This document shows, one piece after another, positions 10,184 to 41,232 of a stretch of DNA of 64,000 nucleotides. Positions within the stretch are counted from its first letter, which is position 1, and every line of letters begins with the position of its first letter. This DNA comes from Clostridia bacterium. GTDB lineage: Bacteria; Bacillota; Clostridia; Oscillospirales; Acutalibacteraceae. The DNA lies in assembly GCA_017507805.1 (NCBI GenBank), contig JAFWAC010000013.1, positions 1 through 64,000 on the forward strand. The letters run 5' to 3'. The notes below the pieces were generated by a model, which ran no database searches, was not told where the DNA came from, and saw only the letters and a program-made list of their open reading frames with translations. The position numbers and the translations under genes were made by a program.

Positions 10184-11353
10184 ATGGCAAAACGCAGACC
10201 AAACGGTGACGGTATGGTTAGAAAATCTAAAGGTAGGTGGGAAGGTAGAATAGTTGTAGGTCATAAAGAAAACGGTGATTCAATATTCAGATATGTCTAC
10301 GCTAAAACTCAAAAAGAATTAACCGAAAAGATGCACCGTAAATTAAATGAGTATCAAGGAGTGGAGCTTACTGAAGATAGCAAAATGACACTCGGATGTT
10401 GGCTGGATGTATGGCTCGAAAAATATATGAAAAATACTATCAGACCGAGTACATTTGATAGCTACAAACATATGATTGAAAGTTATGTTAAACCCAACCT
10501 CGGAGGTAAAACAATCGCCTTTGTAAACTCAAACGATATACAAAAAATGTATATAAAAGTAAAGAAAGAAGGTAGAATTAATTATCGCCCAAAGGTAGGT
10601 AAAAGTCTTTCGGATTCAACAATAGTCCGACTGCATAATATGTTGCATAAAGCAATGGATGATGCAGTAAAGGAACACCTCATTCCAAAGAACCCGACGG
10701 CAGGTGCTAAACCGCCCAAGAAACCAAAACCCGAGCTTCAGATATTAAATGAAGAACAGCTTGAAAGATTTATGGATGCTATAAAGGATGACATTATGTG
10801 GCATGATTTATTCTACACCGAGCTTACAACCGGACTTCGTAGAGGAGAGCTGTGCGGATTAAAATGGACCGACTTTGATGAACGAGAAGGCACTCTTAAA
10901 ATCAACCGCAGTGTGTCTCACGATAAGAAAGGCGGTATAGTTGAAGGCGAGACTAAAACAGGTCAGGGAAAGCGTGTAATAATACTGCCGAAAAGTACAG
11001 TAGACTTATTAAAAGAACGCAAAATTAAAAGTCATAGCGAATGGATATTTGAAAATCCTCTTAAACCCGAAAGACCAGTATCGCCCTGCTCGGCATACAA
11101 CAGAATGAAAGTTATTCTGAAAAAAGCAAACCTTCCAAGCATTCGATTTCATGACTTGCGACACACCTTCGCTACCCATGCTCTTACAAGCGGAGTCGAT
11201 GCGAAAACACTCTCGGGAATCCTCGGTCATACAAACGCGAGCTTCACGCTCGATACATATACGCATGTGACAACAGATATGCAAAAGAGAGCATCGGAAA
11301 TTGTAGATGACTTTGTTGCGAATATATTTGGAGAGGGGCTGGATTTAATATGA
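10184..11353 (+). CDS. Tyrosine site-specific recombinase 1
   Basis: Integrase of 389 residues with the standard three domains: an N-terminal arm-binding AP2-like domain (GRWEGRIVVG ... YAKTQKELTEKM), a SAM-like core-binding domain (about 65-170) and a catalytic domain. Catalytic residues are visible as LRRGELCG (Arg), HDLRHTFATHA (His-x-x-Arg), ILGHTNASFTLDTYTHVT (His and Tyr). GGAGG upstream supports the start. It overlaps recombinase 2 by four bases, so the two are made together and may act as a pair in integrating the element. Confidence 0.88.
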   Translation: MAKRRPNGDGMVRKSKGRWEGRIVVGHKENGDSIFRYVYAKTQKELTEKMHRKLNEYQGVELTEDSKMTLGCWLDVWLEKYMKNTIRPSTFDSYKHMIESYVKPNLGGKTIAFVNSNDIQKMYIKVKKEGRINYRPKVGKSLSDSTIVRLHNMLHKAMDDAVKEHLIPKNPTAGAKPPKKPKPELQILNEEQLERFMDAIKDDIMWHDLFYTELTTGLRRGELCGLKWTDFDEREGTLKINRSVSHDKKGGIVEGETKTGQGKRVIILPKSTVDLLKERKIKSHSEWIFENPLKPERPVSPCSAYNRMKVILKKANLPSIRFHDLRHTFATHALTSGVDAKTLSGILGHTNASFTLDTYTHVTTDMQKRASEIVDDFVANIFGEGLDLI

Positions 11354-12795
11354 GTAAAAAACGCAAGAAAGGTTCGGGTACACTTCGTAAACGAGCAGAC
11401 GGTAGATGGGAAGCGAGAGTTGTTACAGGATACGATGAAAAAGGTAAACCAATAACCAAAAATGTAACTGCGAACGAAAAGTCTAAATGCCTTGAAAAAT
11501 TAGAAAAACTTAAAGAAGAAATAAATTTTATTCAGCGAGATACCACAAAAGCGGATATGCCATTCGGCGAATGGATTGATTTCTGGTACAGACATTATTG
11601 TAAGATGACTATCCGACCGTCCACACAAGCAGGCTATGAAAACCGCATCTACAATCACATCATCCCTGAGATAGGCAGTATAAAATTAAATAAGCTCACG
11701 CAAAACTACTTGCAACAGTTTTATTCAAGAGTCAAGAAATGCGGGCGATTGCAATACAAAGAATTTTATGGCGATGGTTTATCTGACCGAATGATACGTG
11801 GTATACATGCACTATGCCGGATGGCTCTTGAAAAAGCGGTAAGCGAAAATCTTATAACAATTAATCCTGCAATCGGGTGCAAACTACCGCCAAAGAAATC
11901 CGCAGAGATGCAGGTGCTGACACCCGAAGAAATGCATAGATTTCTGATACAGGCTAAATACGAAGGATACTTTGAAATGTTACTGCTTGAACTGACAACA
12001 GGAATGCGCCGAGGGGAGTTATTAGCGTTACAATGGAAAGATTTAAACTTCCAAACCGGAGAACTTCATATTTGCAGGCAAGTATATCATGTAAAAGGTA
12101 GTCTGCAAATAACAGAGCCAAAAACAAAAGGCTCAATAAGGACAATAATATTATCCAAATCCGTATTAAATGTATTAGCAGAATACAAAAAGACTGTGAA
12201 TTCAAGATGGCTATTCCCATCACCGGTGATAGATGATATGCCAAGAAATCCACAGTCTGTATTCAAAAAGGTTAAAGAAATACTTAAAAAAGCAGATTGT
12301 AAGAATATCCGATTTCACGACCTGCGTCACACCTTCGCTACAACGGCATTAGCCAACGGAATGGATGTGAAAACCCTATCCTCAATCATAGGTCATGTAT
12401 CGTCAGAAACCACCCTTGATATATACTTGCACAGTACCCAAGAAATGCAACGACAAGCGGCAAACAAAATAGACCGCGGTATTGTAGGATGTGAGGGAGA
12501 CAACACTGAAGACGAGAATGTACACGTCCAAACCTTAAAAACACCGTGTGAGCCCAAATTTGAGCCTGTAAAAAGAAAAATACGAAAATCAGGAACGGGT
12601 TGTATCACAGAAATAAACGACCATCTCTTTGAAGGCAAGTTCTCACCTACGGGTGCAGATGGAAAACGCTTCACCCGTCATATATATGCTAAGACCAGAG
12701 ATGAGTGTGAAATCCTACTTGCAGAGATGATTGCTAAAACCAAAGCCGAGATTCAAGAAGCCAAGGCTAAGCTGAAGGCATCACAGTCGGCATAA
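11350..12795 (+). CDS. Tyrosine site-specific recombinase 2 with extra C-terminal arm-binding domain
   Basis: Paralogue of the preceding integrase, 481 residues. The N-terminal AP2-like domain (GRWEARVVTG), core-binding domain and catalytic motifs (GMRRGELLAL, HDLRHTFATTA, IIGHVSSETTLDIYLH) are intact. It is about 90 residues longer. The extension (about 405-470) contains NDHLFEGKFSP, DGKRFTRHIYAKT and an acidic helix, the same pattern as the N-terminal arm-binding domain. It therefore appears to carry a second arm-type DNA-binding module at the C-terminus. A basic, helical tail ends the protein. A paired-recombinase arrangement implies both proteins are needed for the reaction or its direction. 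Confidence 0.85.
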   Translation: MSKKRKKGSGTLRKRADGRWEARVVTGYDEKGKPITKNVTANEKSKCLEKLEKLKEEINFIQRDTTKADMPFGEWIDFWYRHYCKMTIRPSTQAGYENRIYNHIIPEIGSIKLNKLTQNYLQQFYSRVKKCGRLQYKEFYGDGLSDRMIRGIHALCRMALEKAVSENLITINPAIGCKLPPKKSAEMQVLTPEEMHRFLIQAKYEGYFEMLLLELTTGMRRGELLALQWKDLNFQTGELHICRQVYHVKGSLQITEPKTKGSIRTIILSKSVLNVLAEYKKTVNSRWLFPSPVIDDMPRNPQSVFKKVKEILKKADCKNIRFHDLRHTFATTALANGMDVKTLSSIIGHVSSETTLDIYLHSTQEMQRQAANKIDRGIVGCEGDNTEDENVHVQTLKTPCEPKFEPVKRKIRKSGTGCITEINDHLFEGKFSPTGADGKRFTRHIYAKTRDECEILLAEMIAKTKAEIQEAKAKLKASQSA

Positions 12796-14330: not shown

Positions 14331-15170
14331 ATGGTAATTGATTTTCATACGCACACCTTTCCGGAAAGAATAGCGACCGCTGCAATAGTAAAAATGCAAG
14401 CGGACTGTCATTCGGTTGCTTTTACAGAGGGCACAGAGGTTGCTCTTTGTTCCTCAATGTCAAAAGCGGATATTGATTTTTCGGTTGTATTGCCTGTAAT
14501 CACGAATCCGCTAAAAACTTCTTCAATAAATGCAGTTTCTAAAGAAAAAAACGGAAATAAAGGCTTGTTTTTCTTTGGCGGTATCCATCCGGATTCACCT
14601 AATATATCTGATGAGCTTTTTCGGCTTGCCCAAGCCGGAATAAAGGGTATAAAAATTCATCCTGTATATCAAGGTGTCGATATAGATGACATTCGTTTTT
14701 TGAGAATACTTTACGCTGCGGCAGAAAATGGACTTATCGTAGTTACACATACCGGCTATGATATAGGTTTTCCCGGTGTGGTGCGTTGTTCGCCAAAAAT
14801 GCTTTTAAATGCCATAAAACAGGTAGGGAATTTAAAGCTTGTTGCGGCGCATATGGGAGGTTGGCGCAATTGGCAAGAGGCAGCGGAGCTTTTGTCAGAT
14901 ACTGAAATTTTTATAGATACTGCATTTTCGTTTGGGAAAATCACTCCTATTGACAGTAATTATTATTCTGAAGAAGAGCTTAAGCTTTTAGGCAAACAGC
15001 AATTTTTAGAGTTGATAAGATTATTTGGTTCAAAGCGAGTGCTTTTCGGTACGGATAGCCCGTGGGACTGCCAAAAAACAGCTAAAACAGAAATAGCTGC
15101 ATTGCCGCTTTCCGAAAATGAAAGGGAAAACATATTTTCAAATAATGCCCGAATGCTGCTGGGAATATAA
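14331..15170 (+). CDS. Amidohydrolase family protein
   Basis: TIM-barrel metal hydrolase of 279 residues of the amidohydrolase-2/TatD-like group. Metal-site motifs are DFHTHTF (residues 3-9), GIKIHP (about 107), THTGYD (about 139), AHMGG (about 170) and the late aspartate in FGTDSPW (about 240). It could hydrolyse a carboxylate or amide substrate, but nothing nearby identifies which. The gene stands alone between the tRNA-Pro and the split tRNA-Ser and probably belongs to the host chromosome. Confidence 0.75.
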   Translation: MVIDFHTHTFPERIATAAIVKMQADCHSVAFTEGTEVALCSSMSKADIDFSVVLPVITNPLKTSSINAVSKEKNGNKGLFFFGGIHPDSPNISDELFRLAQAGIKGIKIHPVYQGVDIDDIRFLRILYAAAENGLIVVTHTGYDIGFPGVVRCSPKMLLNAIKQVGNLKLVAAHMGGWRNWQEAAELLSDTEIFIDTAFSFGKITPIDSNYYSEEELKLLGKQQFLELIRLFGSKRVLFGTDSPWDCQKTAKTEIAALPLSENERENIFSNNARMLLGI

Positions 15171-15217
15171 TAATTCTGTGTTGATTAATAAAATTTTTAA
15201 AAACAACTCTTTTTTTC

Positions 15218-15246
15218 TTGACATGCGCCAGATATTTTAATATAAT
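15218..15246 (+). promoter_or_regulatory. Consensus promoter of the host tRNA-Ser gene
   Basis: TTGACA at 15218-15223 and TATAAT at 15241-15246 with a 17-base spacer: both hexamers match consensus. It starts about 50 bases before the interrupted tRNA-Ser. After integration it reads through the left junction toward the element's own tRNA-Ser at 15483. Confidence 0.8.
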
Positions 15247-15295
15247 TGCTTAAGATAGCTTTGATTTTTAAAAATCAACTGTAACTTAATATTGT

Positions 15296-15335
15296 GGAGA
15301 CGTATCGAAGTGGTCATAACGGGGCTGACTCGAAA
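15296..15335 (+). pseudogene. 5' half of interrupted tRNA-Ser(CGA)
   Basis: Contains acceptor strand GGAGACG, a D-arm (TCG...CGG), the 5' anticodon stem GCTGA and the loop CTCGAAA. The sequence then switches to element DNA (CAGTCAGC...), which cannot complete the stem or the rest of the tRNA. The missing 3' half is at 41133-41188. The halves joined at the loop give fully paired acceptor (GGAGACG/CGTCTCC), anticodon, variable and T arms. Confidence 0.9.
15329..15335 (+). other. attL core (CTCGAAA)
   Basis: Left junction of the 25.8-kb island. The 7-bp core equals the anticodon loop of the target tRNA-Ser(CGA) and is repeated at 41133-41139. Crossover within an anticodon loop is a known preference of one class of tRNA-targeting tyrosine integrases. 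Confidence 0.85.
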
Positions 15336-15407
15336 CAGTCAGCACTATGCCACGGGCTTCCCTAACCGTACCGCATAATCATTGGTTTTTTGCGATATTA
15401 CTGTGCA

Positions 15408-15441
15408 TTTTCGCAAATCCCGTTCTCGCAGTATTCTCGCA
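15408..15441 (+). repeat. Putative integrase arm-type sites, left end
   Basis: TTTTCGCA at 15408-15415, TTCTCGCA at 15423-15430 and TTCTCGCA at 15434-15441, all in the same orientation; the last two are 11 bp apart. The same motif occurs four times at the right end. Confidence 0.65.
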
Positions 15442-15482
15442 ACATTGTAATTCGGCATTTTTGCTTTTTTACAACTGAATAT

Positions 15483-15573
15483 GGAGATGTATCGAAGTGG
15501 TCGTAACGAGAACGATTCGAAATCGTTTTGTCCTTAACTGGGCACGTGGGTTCGAATCCCACCATCTCCGCCA
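15483..15573 (+). tRNA. tRNA-Ser (anticodon CGA), carried by the element
   Basis: Acceptor GGAGATG/CATCTCC, D-arm TCG...CGA, anticodon arm AACGA-TTCGAAA-TCGTT with anticodon CGA, a long class II variable arm, T-arm GTGGG-TTCGAAT-CCCAC, discriminator G and encoded CCA. It is complete. Its 5' portion closely resembles the interrupted host gene, but the variable and T arms differ, so it is a distinct allele. It lies about 150 bases inside the left junction. No convincing promoter lies directly upstream, so it is probably expressed from the host promoter at 15218-15246. Confidence 0.95.
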
Positions 15574-15576
15574 CAG

Positions 15577-15611
15577 ACTCCTTGGAGGCTTTCGCCCCCA
15601 AGGAGTTTTTC
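15577..15611 (+). terminator. Terminator after element tRNA-Ser
   Basis: Stem ACTCCTTGG / CCAAGGAGT with a 12-base loop followed by TTTTTCTTTT, three bases after the tRNA CCA. The convergent integrase gene ends at 15614, so it may work in both directions. Confidence 0.8.
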
Positions 15612-15613
15612 TT

Positions 15614-16801
15614 TTATTCCAGTGCCGAGCCGATGGCAAGCGCACTTGCTTTTTTACTCTCACTGTCGATATGGCTATAAATATTTGCCGTTGTTCCCAT
15701 ATCGCTGTGCCCCAACCAATCCTGTATCATCTTCATGGGAACACCTTGAGCCAGAAGCAGCGAAGCACAACTGTGTCGTAAATCGTGGAAGCGAATACTT
15801 CGCAGTCCGTTTAGTCGTAAGAAAATTTTGAAGTGGTCGCTGACATAGTCGGGGCGAAGAATAAGACCGAGAGCATCCACGCAAATATATTCGGTATATT
15901 TTTTACTGTATGCGCGACGCATCACCCGTTTCATCTCTTCCTGACGTTCTTTTTCTTTCAGCAGAGCTTCTTCTACCTGTGGTATCAACGGCAGGGTGCG
16001 GTAGGATGATTTGGTTTTCATAACGTCAAGACCTTTAACACCGTTTTTGTTTTCGATAATTTTATGGTTGATACTGATGGTTTTATTATCGAAATCGACC
16101 GCTGACCATTTAAGTCCCACCGCTTCACTTCGCCTGAGACCATAGTATGCCGACAGAAGTATCGGCATATAAATCGGATCACCTTCTGCTTTTTCAAGCA
16201 GTATTCGCAGTTCGTTTGCGTTATAATATCCGCCGATGAACTGTGTGGCTTTCGGGCGGTCTGCCTGTTCCACGGGGTTGCTTGAAATAATTCTTCTCTT
16301 GACTGCCGACTTGAACGCAAGGTGTAGTAGTGCGTGGTGTCGTTGAGCAGTTGAACCTTTAAGCCCTTCTGTACGTATACAAATATAATATTCGTTGATT
16401 TCGTCACCCGTAATATCTTTGACTTTAAGGTCGCCGTATTCACGGAAGAAGGGTATCATTCTCGATTCGATCATAGTTTTATATCCAAGGTAAGTGGTTT
16501 CCGAAACATTTATCTTGTGGGTTTCCAACCACTGAGGAAGGTATTCGATAACCTGCATATGCGCGATGCGACTGCGCTCACGCTCGGCGTGAGTCATCTT
16601 ATCGTGCAGATATAAATCATCGGTATTATACTGGTCGAGAATTTTGTTCAGACGATATTGCGCTTCACGCTTGTTTTTATTACCGGCCTCAAGGTCAAGG
16701 CTTTGCCATTTTTCGTGGCGTTTACCTTCGGTGTCATATAGGTTAATAACACCGTACCATTTCTTCTTTTTCTCTATAATATGACCTGTAATTCTTCTCA
16801 T
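15614..16801 (-). CDS. int: Tyrosine integrase of the tRNA-Ser island
   Basis: Recombinase of 395 residues with an N-terminal arm-binding domain (KKWYGVINLYDTEGKRHEKW), a SAM-like core-binding domain (about 90-180) and a catalytic domain. Catalytic signatures are YYGLRRSEAVGL (Arg), HDLRHSCASLL (His, Arg) and WLGHSDMGTTANIYSHID (His, nucleophilic Tyr). It lies within 290 bases of attL, the usual position of an integrase, and should catalyse insertion into the tRNA anticodon loop. An inverted repeat at 16825-16869 covers its upstream region. Confidence 0.9.
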   Translation of the reverse strand: MRRITGHIIEKKKKWYGVINLYDTEGKRHEKWQSLDLEAGNKNKREAQYRLNKILDQYNTDDLYLHDKMTHAERERSRIAHMQVIEYLPQWLETHKINVSETTYLGYKTMIESRMIPFFREYGDLKVKDITGDEINEYYICIRTEGLKGSTAQRHHALLHLAFKSAVKRRIISSNPVEQADRPKATQFIGGYYNANELRILLEKAEGDPIYMPILLSAYYGLRRSEAVGLKWSAVDFDNKTISINHKIIENKNGVKGLDVMKTKSSYRTLPLIPQVEEALLKEKERQEEMKRVMRRAYSKKYTEYICVDALGLILRPDYVSDHFKIFLRLNGLRSIRFHDLRHSCASLLLAQGVPMKMIQDWLGHSDMGTTANIYSHIDSESKKASALAIGSALE

Positions 16802-17202: not shown

Positions 17203-18375
17203 TTACATTTGTAGCCAAATTTCATTTTGTTCCTCCTCAAGTTCTTGCGGTAATTCCTCAGAATTGTCATTGTTCATGTTTAAAATAAGTCCCGCCGCAA
17301 TGCCGATTATTGCACCAAGATTTGAAGCGTTTTGTTCTGCTTCAATTCTTTTACGGCGCTCCTCACTGTCTTCGGAAGTGTCTTCAAAAATTCTCGCAAA
17401 TTCCAAAGCGCTCCGAACACCAAGCCCAACATAATCAAGGTGGTTTTGCTCTGATTCGTCGCTTTTGTTATGCTTGTTTTCGAAATATCCAAGCTCTAAT
17501 AAATTAAAATATGCCTCTCTTGACTCTTCCCAGCCGGTCTTAGAATAACCATCAGTCACCTCGTCAATATAAAAATCGCCGGCATAAAATTTCGTTAGTA
17601 ATTCGCTTCTTATTTTAAATTCTTGTTCGAGTGTTTCTTTTAAAAATTTGTTATTGTGAAGTCTTATATCCCTGCATTTCTGCCCGCCAAGACATGTAAA
17701 AGTCAGGTATTTTCTTTCCGATTTCCAGTTGATTTGAAAGCCGAGTTCTTTCATTTTGCCGATGAATTCTTCCCGTGTACCGCTTTTAAACATTGCATGA
17801 TTTATGCTTGTAATCAACTCTTGTTTCCAACTTGAACCTCTGCTTCTTGCACGGTATTCTCTGCTCGAAATCTTCCTGCCGTTTTGCTCATAAGGACTTA
17901 AAACACTGAGTCCGTAATCAGCACATATATTATCGCTAAGGCATCGCAAAGTTTTAAGTGTGGTCGGGCTTTGTCGGAGCTTATATCCGCTTTCAAAGCT
18001 TACCGAATTTATCACAAAGTGGTTATGAATATGCTCAGCATCAAGGTGTGTCGCAACCAAAACCTCGTGCCCCGGCCATGCTTTTTCTGCGAACTCCAAA
18101 CCGATTTTATGTACCTGCTCAGGTGTAACATTTTCCCTCGGAGAAAAGGACTGAACATACTGATAAAAGTTAAAACCGTCAACCTTTTTATAGGCATATT
18201 TGGTTGTCATAAATTCATTAAAAGCGTTTTCGCCGTTGCAGTTTATTCCGCTGACATATCGGTGACCGCTGTCCTTATCCCTTACTTTAGAATCCTGAAC
18301 ACAGTAATTTATGAGGCCTTTCATAGCGCTGATTGTCTGTTTGCTCTCGCGAATATAATTTACAGTAGCCATCAC
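17203..18375 (-). CDS. Relaxase/mobilization nuclease (MobA/VirD2 type)
   Basis: Relaxase of about 390 residues. The metal-binding HUH-type motif HLDAEHIHNHFVINS lies near residue 110, and the N-terminal region contains the candidate nucleophilic Tyr in LINYCVQDSK. The C-terminal part is acidic and helical with a hydrophobic patch (LGAIIGIAAGLILN), perhaps for contact with a helper coupling protein. The start overlaps the MobC-like stop by four bases. It is unrelated in sequence to the relaxase at 8739, so the window holds two independently acquired mobilization systems. Confidence 0.85.
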   Translation of the reverse strand: MMATVNYIRESKQTISAMKGLINYCVQDSKVRDKDSGHRYVSGINCNGENAFNEFMTTKYAYKKVDGFNFYQYVQSFSPRENVTPEQVHKIGLEFAEKAWPGHEVLVATHLDAEHIHNHFVINSVSFESGYKLRQSPTTLKTLRCLSDNICADYGLSVLSPYEQNGRKISSREYRARSRGSSWKQELITSINHAMFKSGTREEFIGKMKELGFQINWKSERKYLTFTCLGGQKCRDIRLHNNKFLKETLEQEFKIRSELLTKFYAGDFYIDEVTDGYSKTGWEESREAYFNLLELGYFENKHNKSDESEQNHLDYVGLGVRSALEFARIFEDTSEDSEERRKRIEAEQNASNLGAIIGIAAGLILNMNNDNSEELPQELEEEQNEIWLQM

Positions 18376-18689
18376 CCTTTCCTCGCAATTTCATAAAGTT
18401 GCTCATAAATTTTCCTTTGTTCTTCCACTACATCACAGAAATTATACGAATCAAACGCTCCTGAATTTATCTTTGTTGCTATCTGATTCAGGTTGTTTCC
18501 AATGCGTTTCATCTCTGCTATAAGCGGTTTTACATCCTCTGATACAGTGATTGGAATCTCATTAGAGATGGCAACTATGTAATCTGTAATACTTTTTTGT
18601 GCCTTTTTTGCATTACGGCGAATTTGGGTATACTCCTTTTCGGTTAGACGAACCGTAAGGGTTTTATTTCTTTTGCGCTTTTCACTCAA
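18372..18689 (-). CDS. mobC: MobC-like relaxosome protein
   Basis: Basic protein of 105 residues: RKRNKTLTVRLTEKEYTQIRRNAKKAQKSITDYI is a ribbon-helix-helix region, and the later IAEMKRIGNNLNQIATKIN segment is the MobC-type conserved motif. It starts with TTG at 18689, with AAGGAG upstream. It would bind the island's oriT and assist nicking by the relaxase, with which it is translationally coupled. Confidence 0.78.
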   Translation of the reverse strand: MSEKRKRNKTLTVRLTEKEYTQIRRNAKKAQKSITDYIVAISNEIPITVSEDVKPLIAEMKRIGNNLNQIATKINSGAFDSYNFCDVVEEQRKIYEQLYEIARKG

Positions 18690-20088: not shown

Positions 20089-21190
20089 TCATTGTAGACA
20101 TAGAAAGATTTAAAAGTATAAATTACCCCTCCCACTTTCTATTCCACAATTTTTCAAAATTTTACAACCACTTTTCAAAATTATTTACAAATAATTCACT
20201 TTTGCTCTGTATGTCTTATAAGGACTAAATTGCAATTTTAACAGCCCAAATTTTCAAAAATTTACAAAAAGTTTATAAATACCCCTCACCTTCTTTTCCA
20301 TAATTTTTTGGAATTTTACAACCCCTACACTTCTTATAGGCAATTTTTTAGGTGGTTGAGCCATTTTTTTATTGAAAATTCAAAGATTGTTTACAAAATC
20401 ATTCTTAAAACAATATTACTTCAAAGAGTTCTTTCACTTTATTTGCCGTTAAAGAAACAGTTTCACAACCATATATCTGAGAAATTTATAAAATATTTAA
20501 ACTTTCTAGGTTTTTTCATTACCCCTCTACCTATCTAATGCAACAATTTTTAGGAATTTTACAACCACTTTTAAAAAACATTTACAAATAATTCATTTTT
20601 ACCCTCTACTTTCTAAGCCAAAAAACAAGCTATGCTATGCGCAAAAAAACAAAATATTCACAATTTTTTTACATTTAAATCTCCTCATTATATTTGCCGT
20701 TAAGTAACCAATTTCACAACCAAACATTCAAAAACTTCACATTCACTACACTGGTTTATCCGTTATCTTTGCAACTAATTTATTTGCCCCTCTACTTATG
20801 TAATGCCACACTTTTTTAAATTTTTACAACCGCTATTCAAAAAGCATTTATAAAAAATTTATACTCTCTATATCTTATAGGTACAAAAATGCAGTTTTAA
20901 CAGACCTGTTTTTCAAAAATTCACAGAATGTTTTTAAATACCCTCCTCACATTCTTTTCCACAATTTTTTAAAAATTTATAACCGATACTTAAAATTATT
21001 TACAATAAATTCATTCCCCCTACTTATACAAAGTAAAAAAATACTAGTTTAACAACTTATTTTTGAAAAATTTTAAATATTTAAACTTTTTTCTTAACTA
21101 TCCATACACAGAATATTTTGTTCTTACATATCTTATAAGTACTTTTTTCGGGTTTTGAACAAATTTTATATTAAAAATTTAAAATTTGTT
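20089..21190. repeat. AT-rich region with degenerate long repeats
   Basis: About 1.1 kb without a credible gene. A degenerate unit of about 65 bases beginning ACCCCTC, then TCCACAATTTTT, a TTTTACAACC core and ATTTACAAATAATTCA, starts near 20126, 20281, 20520, 20786 and 20939. A longer block (TCTTATA.GG, TTTTAACAG, TTTTTAAATACCC) recurs at 20214-20320 and 20873-20985. A second element (TTTGCCGTTAA then TTTCACAACCA) occurs near 20440 and 20695. Position beside the RepA-like gene suggests a replication origin or protein-binding array; it is not a CRISPR because units and spacing vary. Confidence 0.6.
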
Positions 21191-24707: not shown

Positions 24708-25121
24708 TTAAATTAATATGCCATTACAATGGTCAATTTCGTGTTGAATTATTTGCGCAGGCCAACCGGTAAAGGTTTTAATGCGAGTTTGAAACTCTGC
24801 GGTTTGCCATTGAACCTTGATGGTCTGATAGCGATTACACGGACGGGGACCGCCGAGCAGAGAAAGACAACCTTCCTCAGTATCATACGGCCCTGATTTT
24901 TTGATAATCTCCGGGTTAAACATCGTCATATATGTACATTCGTTATCAAACACAATAATGCGCTTGCGCACGCCAATCATATTTGCCGCCATGCCGACAC
25001 AACCATCTTTGTTAGCAATTAGCGTGTCAAGCAAATCCTGCGCCACCTGCAAATCTTCTTTTGTCGCCATCTCCGACTTTCCTGCAAGAAAAATCGGATC
25101 GTGTATTACTTCTTTAACCAT
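24708..25121 (-). CDS. def: Peptide deformylase
   Basis: Compact metallo-hydrolase of 137 residues that removes the N-formyl group from nascent proteins. Motif 1 is GCVGMAANMIG (usual Q replaced by N-M), motif 2 is EGCLS with the metal-binding Cys, and motif 3 is QHEIDHCNGIL with both metal-binding His and catalytic Glu. It ends two residues after motif 3 and so lacks the long C-terminal helix of housekeeping enzymes. Its place immediately upstream of the ABC-3C-like genes, inside an integrated element, is unusual; it may be a resistance-type spare copy or part of the defence locus. Confidence 0.85.
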   Translation of the reverse strand: MVKEVIHDPIFLAGKSEMATKEDLQVAQDLLDTLIANKDGCVGMAANMIGVRKRIIVFDNECTYMTMFNPEIIKKSGPYDTEEGCLSLLGGPRPCNRYQTIKVQWQTAEFQTRIKTFTGWPAQIIQHEIDHCNGILI

Positions 25122-27888: not shown

Positions 27889-28365
27889 CTACTGCTTCTT
27901 GCTACCCGTAAACGGGTCTATGTATTCTTTTATACTTATCTGCTCTGCCATATAATCTTCTTCCAATTGATTTCTTATGTATTCGGCAATCGCTTTTTTA
28001 TTTCGACCGACTGTATCTACGTAATACCCTCGACACCAAAAACTTCTTGACCCATATTTGTATTTTAAATTTGCATGTCGGTCGAAAATCATCAATGTAC
28101 TTTTCCCCTTGAGAAATCCCATGAACTGTGCTATACTTATGTGCGGCGGGATACTTACCAGCATATGTATGTGATCGGGGCATGCTTCTGCTTCTATTAT
28201 TACTACATTCTTCTGTTCACATAATTTTCTGAGTATTTCACCTATATCTCTTTTTATTTGTCCATATATTTCTTTTCTTCTATACTTCGGGGCAAAAACT
28301 ATATGGTACTGACATCTATACTTTGAATGTGAACTGCTTCTTATTTCATTATTATTTTCTTTCAT
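27889..28365 (-). CDS. tnpA: IS200/IS605-family Y1 transposase TnpA
   Basis: HUH single-strand transposase of 158 residues. The HUH motif is CPDHIHMLVSIP (about residues 63-74), and the catalytic tyrosine lies in RGYYVDTVGRNK (about 118). Length and motifs are complete, so it may be active. It moves the surrounding hairpin-ended element by a peel-and-paste mechanism. Confidence 0.92.
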   Translation of the reverse strand: MKENNNEIRSSSHSKYRCQYHIVFAPKYRRKEIYGQIKRDIGEILRKLCEQKNVVIIEAEACPDHIHMLVSIPPHISIAQFMGFLKGKSTLMIFDRHANLKYKYGSRSFWCRGYYVDTVGRNKKAIAEYIRNQLEEDYMAEQISIKEYIDPFTGSKKQ

Positions 28366-39927: not shown

Positions 39928-40054
39928 GTTAGTCAATCCATAAAAGCATGTGACTAACCATAGGGCGACCTATTGCTATAAACCTCAAAGGGTAATCCTC
40001 ATAATAGCATTACAGAAGATTAGTTAGCCAATTTTCAATAGCTCTCATTGAAAA
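39928..40054 (-). ncRNA. Candidate structured RNA upstream of HNH gene
   Basis: On the minus strand four perfect hairpins follow each other: TTTTCAAT/ATTGAAAA (40054-40032), TGCTAT/ATAGCA (40019-39974), ATAGG/CCTAT (39973-39960) and GTTAGTC/GACTAAC (39958-39928). They lie between the upstream HTH gene and the HNH gene, in a stretch with no coding potential. It could be a cis-regulatory leader or a separate RNA. Known HNH-associated RNAs (HEARO/omega RNA) go with IscB; this is not claimed to be one. Confidence 0.45.
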
Positions 40055-40136
40055 GGTTCAGATTTATGAATTGCAATAATATTATATCGTAAAAAGTGTG
40101 AATAGTCAATCACTACAAAAGCTGTGGCGGCAAGGG

Positions 40137-40703
40137 TTACTTGCCGCCGTTTTGTTTAAAGAACTTTTGCAGGAGTTTTATGTGCTTATCGGACATATTT
40201 GTTATGGTGTAGGCGTAGGAGCAGTAGAAGTCGATGAGCCATACCTTAGATATAATTTTTGTGGTTTGGGTTTGGACGGACTTCAGGTGGCCTTGGCGGA
40301 GCCAGCGGTTCACGGTGTTATCGGTATAGCCAGTGATGGTGATGACTTGCGGTATGGTGAGTGCATCGGGAACAGTTTCGAATTCTTGTTCGAGCCACGG
40401 TCGGAAGGTTGACGGCAGAGAGTAAGGAAATCCTGCTTTGCGCTGATATTGTTTTCGATTTTTATTATACTTTGCCGTTGAGAACTCGGCGTAGGGTGTA
40501 ACGTATTTTTCAGGGTGGTTTGCAGAATCCCCTATGTAGGTGAGCAGATCTTCCTTCAGCACAGTATATTTTCTTGTTCTTTTGCCGGTGTTTTGGCATT
40601 TGATGAAGCCGTTGTTAAGCATCCAAGCGCACTTGCGTTTGCTGATGTGCAAGGCGCACCGCACTTGTTCGCCCGAAAGCACTTGCGGTAGGCTGTTCAA
40701 CAT
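40137..40703 (-). CDS. Helix-turn-helix protein with two DNA-binding segments
   Basis: A 188-residue protein with an excisionase-like segment near the N-terminus (LSGEQVRCALHISKRKCAWMLNNGFI) and a second HTH near 130-150 (LTIPQVITITGYTDNTVNRWLRQG). GGTGAT precedes the start. It overlaps the 85-codon gene by seven bases. Near the right end of the island it may regulate integration or cargo; no closer identity is possible. Confidence 0.55.
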   Translation of the reverse strand: MLNSLPQVLSGEQVRCALHISKRKCAWMLNNGFIKCQNTGKRTRKYTVLKEDLLTYIGDSANHPEKYVTPYAEFSTAKYNKNRKQYQRKAGFPYSLPSTFRPWLEQEFETVPDALTIPQVITITGYTDNTVNRWLRQGHLKSVQTQTTKIISKVWLIDFYCSYAYTITNMSDKHIKLLQKFFKQNGGK

Positions 40704-41008: not shown

Positions 41009-41067
41009 TTCTCGCATCTATCTCGCAAATTTCTCGCAAAAAATCATTAGTTTTTCAATTTCTCGCA
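41009..41067 (+). repeat. Putative integrase arm-type sites, right end
   Basis: TTCTCGCA at 41009-41016, ATCTCGCA at 41020-41027, TTCTCGCA at 41031-41038 and TTCTCGCA at 41060-41067, all in the same orientation. The first three are exactly 11 bp apart. The same motif with the same 11-bp phasing occurs at the left end. Confidence 0.68.
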
Positions 41068-41132
41068 GAACAGATGGAAATATTGCAGTTTTCAGGGACG
41101 GAGAGGGGCGGTGCGGTAGATACTGCCTTTTG

Positions 41133-41139
41133 CTCGAAA
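41133..41139 (+). other. attR core (CTCGAAA)
   Basis: Right junction of the island, identical to 15329-15335. The sequence to its right resumes the host tRNA-Ser (TCAGT closes the anticodon stem). Confidence 0.85.
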
Positions 41140-41188
41140 TCAGTTAGGGAGCAATCCCCCGCGAGTTCGAATCTCGCCGTCTCCGCCA
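41133..41188 (+). pseudogene. 3' half of interrupted tRNA-Ser(CGA)
   Basis: Contains loop CTCGAAA, 3' anticodon stem TCAGT, variable arm GGGA-GCAA-TCCC, T-arm GCGAG-TTCGAAT-CTCGC, acceptor CGTCTCC, discriminator G and CCA. It has no 5' half or promoter of its own and pairs with 15296-15335. Confidence 0.9.
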
Positions 41189-41189
41189 A

Positions 41190-41232
41190 TTGAGTGTTCA
41201 TAATTTTCTCATTATGAACACTCTTTCTTTAT
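41190..41232 (+). terminator. Host tRNA-Ser terminator
   Basis: A 12-bp perfect stem (GAGTGTTCATAA / TTATGAACACTC) with a short loop followed by TTTCTTTATTTT, just after the tRNA CCA. Confidence 0.85.

Follow-up and report, generated by a model that had tools for sequence, protein, structure and literature searches.

A mobilizable island of Clostridia that splits a host tRNA-Ser(CGA) gene and carries a whole replacement in line with the host promoter

Background

The closest described system is the tRNA-dependent lysogeny of actinobacteriophages (Guerrero-Bustamante and Hatfull, mBio 2024, PMC10865867). According to the available part of that paper, it shares with the locus presented here a tyrosine integrase, a host tRNA gene as attB, a short common core, the lack of reconstruction of the host gene and the carriage of a cognate tRNA. 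The actinophage cores in its Table 2 measure 8-17 bp. The authors speculate that a second plasmid could integrate by using the tRNA gene of a first plasmid as attB, which would be the first step of a ladder as described below; in their discussion they point to a prophage of Lactobacillus johnsonii as a probable precursor and urge study beyond the actinophages. The difference is that their system concerns temperate phages of Actinobacteria, whereas we describe mobilizable islands of Bacillota with an in-line tRNA and natural ladders. Moreover, in Fionnbharth the phage tRNA lies at a distance from attP, overlapping gene 37, and a promoter of its own has been demonstrated. In the part of the paper available, we found no proposal of in-line use of the host promoter.

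Three further systems deserve comparison. Mycobacteriophage Gaia (cluster X) has its 8-bp core within tRNA-Leu(CAA) and carries a tRNA of that type downstream of its integrase, as gathered from the available part of PMC10865867 and the sequence record. Some 119 bp before that tRNA, on the tRNA strand, we find the core-like TTCAAAAG, a candidate core judged by sequence alone; if it is the core, Gaia may share the in-line layout. Gaia is nevertheless a phage, and its integrase points the same way as the tRNA and not toward it. The canonical tRNA islands (Islander, PMC4383910, as far as available) likewise have a tyrosine integrase, a crossover of the anticodon-loop class and a tRNA fragment at one end. 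In those islands, however, the attP fragment restores the gene, whereas here only 7 nt are common and a whole second gene is carried. Finally, for Sinorhizobium meliloti and its phage-related sequences, it is reported that a gene resembling those of unrelated species takes the place of a host tRNA gene (PMC11476347, available part, which cites tRNA-dependent lysogeny). These are alphaproteobacterial prophages, and the word 'promoter' does not occur in the main text as available.

Our literature search, which covered subscription journals only to a small extent, returned neither in-line capture of a host promoter, nor wide use of the strategy by mobilizable islands, nor natural ladders. That a cognate tRNA is carried to survive a non-restoring insertion is known; the proposed in-line promoter capture, the ladders and the mobilizable islands appear to be new.

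Results

The window (the whole stretch of 64,000 nucleotides that was analysed) is part of a 93-kb contig in a genome of 2.34 Mb that is 87.6% complete. The features on which the argument depends are the following.

15218..15246, + strand: host tRNA promoter TTGACA-17-TATAAT, outside the island; 12/12 consensus, score 10.0 (the maximum)
15296..15335, + strand: dead 5' half of the host tRNA-Ser(CGA), 40 nt, which stops exactly at the anticodon loop CTCGAAA
15329..15335, + strand: attL core CTCGAAA, 7 nt, identical to the anticodon loop
15336..15482, + strand: spacer, the left arm of attP, 147 bp; best promoter-like score 6.8
15423-15430 and 15434-15441, + strand: two TTCTCGCA repeats in the spacer, read from the sequence
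15483..15573, + strand: intact element tRNA-Ser(CGA), called by ARAGORN; Rfam tRNA 56.9 bits against a gathering score of 29
15577..15611, + strand: intrinsic terminator of the element tRNA; 9-bp stem (15577-15585 / 15598-15606), 12-nt loop, T-run
15614..16801, - strand: tyrosine integrase, convergent with the tRNA; Pfam PF00589 at 5.6e-23, SAM-like N-terminal domains
17203..18375, - strand: MobA/VirD2-type relaxase; Pfam PF03432 at 3.1e-37
18372..18689, - strand: NikA/MobC-like mobilisation protein; Pfam PF21983 at 4.6e-19, PF05713 at 3e-9
40137..40703, - strand: HTH_17 protein at the right end, candidate excisionase; Pfam PF12728 at 5.7e-8, weak PHROG 'excisionase' match at 3.1e-5
41133..41139, + strand: attR core CTCGAAA, directly 5' of the displaced 3' half
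41140..41188, + strand: displaced 3' half of the host tRNA-Ser(CGA)
41192..41223, + strand: terminator of the host tRNA gene, 13-pair stem followed by a T-run

A sequence-only reading of this DNA had proposed that integration breaks the host tRNA-Ser(CGA) gene and that an intact gene of the same anticodon lies about 150 bp inside attL, in the same orientation and with its own terminator. Both proposals stand. The halves of the host gene were located 25.8 kb apart, and when 15296-15335 and 41140-41188 are rejoined in silico the resulting 89 nt fold as tRNA-Ser(CGA). The identity between attL and attR is limited to the 7-nt loop, and both halves stay broken, which is not what reconstruction from an attP fragment would leave. 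The element tRNA, 147 bp inside the left end and reading in the direction of the broken gene, is recognized by ARAGORN and Rfam alike and agrees with the host gene in 65 of the 91 positions aligned. Its terminator was rated strong by our terminator script; the generic built-in scan did not flag it, the loop being longer than 8. In the acceptor stems of 58 element tRNAs all 406 of 406 positions are paired, whereas the dead 5' half and the element 3' half pair at only 337 of 406, a count in which some intact neighbouring tRNAs were taken as dead halves. The TTCTCGCA repeats of the spacer are putative arm-type integrase sites, and four copies of TCTCGCA lie at the right end of the island (41010-41067).

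At attR one candidate had to be dropped. A loose rule matched GGAGAGG 33 nt before the core, and our script labelled 41100-41188 as an intact, rebuilt tRNA, for which neither ARAGORN nor Rfam gives a tRNA call. By eye, the approximately 45 bp before the attR core look alike in the window (41090-41132), where they hold GGAGAGG at the position that a tRNA 5' end would take, and in a 76%-identical relative (G107). A displaced 3' half was found for the window and, in 9 to 60 kb of DNA each, for 4 of 15 other elements (L016, L026, L042, L138), that of L026 being also the 3' part of the tRNA of its own element; for the other 11 none was found in that DNA. The amidohydrolase encoded upstream of the island has a homolog in 46 of 61 genus genomes, yet a search by synteny for an empty site revealed, among 30 loci scanned, a tRNA nearby only at the window's own. 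In lieu of an empty site we used uninterrupted Ser(CGA) genes at other genomic places.

The gene content of the island combines an integrase with a relaxase, and we class the island as a probable integrative mobilizable element. It does not look like a temperate phage: it carries relaxase and NikA/MobC genes, and no virion protein was found among 17 of its ORFs (Pfam) or 10 (PHROGs). Nor did the 17 ORFs given to Pfam include conjugation machinery. A RecA/DnaB-like ATPase is encoded as well, and AT-rich direct repeats of 78-94 nt (20121-21013), perhaps a replication origin, adjoin its gene. The cargo between 21693 and 38810 is defence-like (LmuB-like, an NgoFVII-type methylase-nuclease fusion, PDC-M33 A/B/C, HipA-like, DUF3990), with a peptide deformylase gene (24708-25121) and a transposase-like gene (27889-28365) among it. 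A match to Staphylococcus-1 RNA (Rfam, 130.8 bits) lies close to the right end of the island, at 39937-40070 on the minus strand, between an HNH-like gene and the candidate excisionase. Outside the island, two adjoining tyrosine recombinase-like genes (10184-12795, plus strand) show 28-31% identity to the island integrase.

The pairing of tRNA and integrase is frequent among the relatives. Of 300 genomes from the taxonomic family, 73 contain integrase homologs (E 1e-40 or better). At 25 of 30 family loci a Ser or Leu tRNA adjoins the integrase, and 22 of these have a dead 5' half upstream. Together with 53 of 80 named loci and 6 of 30 genus loci, the latter found via the host tRNA region, 84 loci with an adjacent Ser/Leu tRNA were obtained, of which 79 remained after five duplicates, two of them from other hosts (L098, L099), were dropped. 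A dead half of matching anticodon lies within 260 bp in 70 of the 79 and is absent in 9, and since 70 of 79 relatives have this same layout, chance is excluded as its cause. In all 70 loci the nearest dead half has the anticodon of the cargo tRNA; this sets aside an odd 74-nt ARAGORN call in L139, a tRNA-Ser(GCT), with which the count becomes 69 concordant and one discordant. In that locus the tRNA-Ser(GCT) occupies 1338-1411, between an intact Ser(CGA) and the integrase. A convergent Ser/Leu tRNA is lacking at 32 of 110 integrase loci (5/30 and 27/80), some of which end near the gene.

The targets comprise Ser(CGA), Ser(TGA), Leu(CAA), Leu(TAA) and Leu(CAG). Among the carriers known by name are Caproiciproducens galactitolivorans, Clostridium sporosphaeroides DSM 1294, Oscillibacter ruminantium, Anaerotignum lactatifermentans, Marasmitruncus massiliensis and Paenibacillus. 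Mapped on a tree of the integrases with 82 rows, the six types of cargo require no fewer than 11 changes (shuffled mean 24.1), some of which rest on rows that lack a dead half. Among viral contigs (80 loci, 23 of them scanned for tRNAs) two have a convergent adjacent Leu tRNA (L216, L237), and L216 has a dead half. The best integrase identity in phage records was 42% among the matches listed with most of the protein covered. A faecal 'Bacteriophage sp.' record (MT836101, L298) has an intact Ser(CGA) by a related integrase and two dead Ser halves upstream.

The promoter at 15218-15246 is the sole promoter-like site that a generic scan reported in 15150-15700. Shuffles of this region give a mean of 1.4 sites at the lower threshold of that scan, and we therefore place weight on the perfect 12/12 match and on the relatives, not on the number of sites. 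The first reading, that the only consensus promoter lies outside the island and none is obvious in 15336-15482, is confirmed by the scores given above (10.0 against 6.8 at best in the spacer). The relatives were scored with a weighted consensus of our own, weights included, over the 110 bp upstream of three kinds of site: first dead halves, uninterrupted genus genes and, within spacers of 126-190 bp (11 of 111 fall outside and were left out), the tRNA or the next half. A score of at least 8 was reached before 51 of 74 first dead halves (the other 23 lack such a promoter) and before 10 of 14 uninterrupted genus Ser(CGA) genes, as compared to 3 of 100 spacers (Fisher p 3e-22). Relative to their own shuffles the median p is 0.02 before first dead halves and 0.41 for spacers, in a set that includes some intact neighbours taken as dead halves. 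The right ends of five out of five elements, which would lie upstream of the tRNA in the circular form, score only 5.6-7.1. Sequence scoring thus detects no consensus promoter for the element tRNA in either the spacer or the right end. Strong terminators, in turn, occur in 5 of 100 spacers as against downstream of 63 of 79 tRNAs. On the viral contig L216 the dead half stands downstream of a tRNA-Asp and a tRNA-Val in series, an arrangement that fits, as expected, transcription arriving from upstream.

Could the element tRNA compensate for the lost gene and yet be driven by its own promoter within the spacer, one that is weak or departs from the consensus, its in-line position being a by-product of acquisition? 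The active promoter of the Fionnbharth phage tRNA (PMC10865867, available part) offers a precedent. Moreover, -10-like hexamers are found in the last 30 nt of 27 of 100 spacers versus 13 of 100 in the 30-nt stretches ending 60 nt earlier, and 3 of 100 spacers (L095, L110, L119) have a fair promoter; the spacer type of L019, L096 and L097 combines TTGACT and TAAAAT at poor spacing. Nevertheless, spacers as a class score like their own shuffles, unlike the DNA upstream of the first dead half, the window's own spacer reaches no more than 6.8, and in loci that have a dead half the tRNA is placed in line downstream of it, which an independent promoter would not require. We consider such a promoter unlikely.

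The insertion had also been called self-compensating. In agreement with this, the host gene is split, the same-anticodon layout recurs in the 70 of 79 relatives, and a search of the 87.6% complete genome found no other tRNA-Ser(CGA); the missing 12% could hide a further copy. At least 35 tRNA matches were obtained (150 of 163 candidates scored). Those with a long variable arm were fetched together with a number of others, and the Ser genes in this set have the anticodons TGA, GGA and, in the element, CGA. A pattern of CGA loop and T-loop matches this genome just twice, at the element tRNA and at the displaced 3' half, and its control gives no match there. Across the genus, 45 of 61 genomes match this pattern, 35 once and 10 more than once, where the reversed control also matches in some genomes other than the window's. 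A further claim, that loss of the island by means other than clean excision would be costly, may not hold. The window's genome has a tRNA-Ser(TGA), which could decode UCG by wobble; given this gene, tRNA-Ser(CGA) may be dispensable there. In addition, a ladder in genome G330 retains an intact tRNA with no integrase homolog in the approximately 14 kb searched downstream, so that it is perhaps possible for an element to be lost while a working tRNA remains. The idea that ladders without an integrase are what lost elements leave behind was weakened by G331, where a further Ser(CGA) 3' part lies on a different contig.

Many genus genomes contain such ladders, that is, repeated tRNA 5' halves approximately 180-200 bp apart. 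Each dead half stops at the loop and is followed by a different att arm, and the intact tRNA comes last wherever the contig reaches it (contigs L141, L146 and L147 stop before). Examples with two to four dead halves and differing att arms are L128, L133, L136, L137, L138, L152 and others, as well as L060, L090 and L109. Over all loci, 23 of 77 series have at least two dead halves (14 have two, 7 three and 2 four). Counting the window, an intact Ser(CGA) is present at 27 genus loci, and 13 of them have a dead half (7 one, 3 two, 3 three), but these loci were chosen by similarity to the window, so that the count is no genus frequency, and some intact neighbours were counted as dead halves. Genome G349 is an exception, with a second intact Ser(CGA) 1.5 kb beyond the ladder. 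In G351 two dead halves and an intact tRNA are followed 17 kb on by one 3' half, the sole displaced 3' half matched by pattern in that genome; an earlier element may have been lost by recombination between 3' halves. In a second class of rungs the spacer is much shorter, at about 33-50 bp, and successive halves are some 78 bp apart (L034, L066, L105, L107, L152). The simplest account of the ladders is that they are successive insertions, each apparently into the replacement tRNA of the previous element.

The ladders show that replacement tRNAs do serve as landing sites, and the island genes resemble defence systems. One could thus argue that the carried tRNA is mainly a spare landing site for sister elements, or a shield against tRNA-cutting defences, with compensation incidental. 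In each of the 70 loci that have a dead half nearby, however, the anticodon agrees with that of the disrupted gene, even where, as in L030, L032 and L042, the body of the replacement tRNA is quite unlike that of the host's. Compensation predicts such a match despite unlike bodies, and we regard a mainly different purpose as very improbable.

A comparison of near-identical elements in unrelated hosts separates what travels from what stays. L097 and L098 are identical in integrase, spacer and tRNA (100% each), whereas the dead halves are 90% and the 80 bp upstream 46% identical. For L019 and L085 these values are 99% (integrase), 95% (spacer), 100% (tRNA), 60% (dead half) and 46% (80 bp upstream). 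Since such elements agree in integrase, spacer and tRNA and not in the upstream DNA, the tRNA is element-borne and the promoter is the host's. Two pairs, L019/L097 and L090/L097, are also alike in dead half and upstream DNA (99-100%) and count against the simple contrast, though this is expected because the final dead half in them is one of the inner rungs of a ladder; two Paenibacillus loci (89% identical upstream) form another exception. Finally, that the host had two tandem tRNA-Ser(CGA) genes, as the 83% identity of the host and element 5' halves over 41 nt might suggest, and that the island hit the first and left the second is the least credible explanation and can be dismissed, considering that the intact gene sits between attL and the integrase, within the island, that the tRNAs of near-identical elements from unrelated hosts are identical, that the uninterrupted genus genes L126, L142 and L148 are single, and that 10 of 14 such genes have a promoter of their own.

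Discussion

Taken together, the data favour, with a probability of roughly 80%, a non-restoring insertion in which a cognate tRNA is carried in line, the host promoter is captured and later insertions stack up as ladders. The tyrosine integrase would recombine the anticodon loop of the host tRNA-Ser(CGA) gene with attP over the 7-nt core, and the anatomy of the locus shows the host gene destroyed. The element rebuilds nothing; in line with the broken gene, some 150 bp in from its left end, it has a complete tRNA-Ser(CGA). Once the element is integrated, transcription from the host promoter would run through the dead 5' half and the left att arm into the intact element tRNA, and the tRNA-processing enzymes of the host would cut the element tRNA out of the read-through transcript. 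The promoter and terminator statistics over the relatives support such read-through. With the cross-host comparison, they also support the earlier suggestion that the host promoter is switched to the element's copy. Upon excision the promoter would return to the rejoined host gene and the element copy would probably fall silent, because neither spacer nor right end offers a consensus promoter. The replacement tRNA would in turn be a good attB, where later elements could insert and so build a ladder behind one host promoter, in an insertion order that the rungs would reflect.

We further favour, with more reserve, the view that integration itself is the switch. The cargo tRNA would be silent in the free element and on behind the host promoter, the promoter would be passed on from one element to the next, the ladder would record their order, and a core translation gene of the host would be replaced again and again by versions of foreign origin.

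A Bacillota integrase family with Ser and Leu tRNAs as its targets, which very often has this layout, suggests that tRNA-dependent integration reaches beyond a handful of phages, and a family of such islands is seen in gut and other bacteria. The strategy provides a simple route to many hosts, as little beyond the seven bases of the loop is needed and the rest of the gene is brought along. The usual rule by which islands are mapped, namely that the target gene is restored from a fragment, fails for these elements. The ladders preserve the order of the traffic of mobile elements at one site, and they show a path for the horizontal replacement of a core gene of translation.
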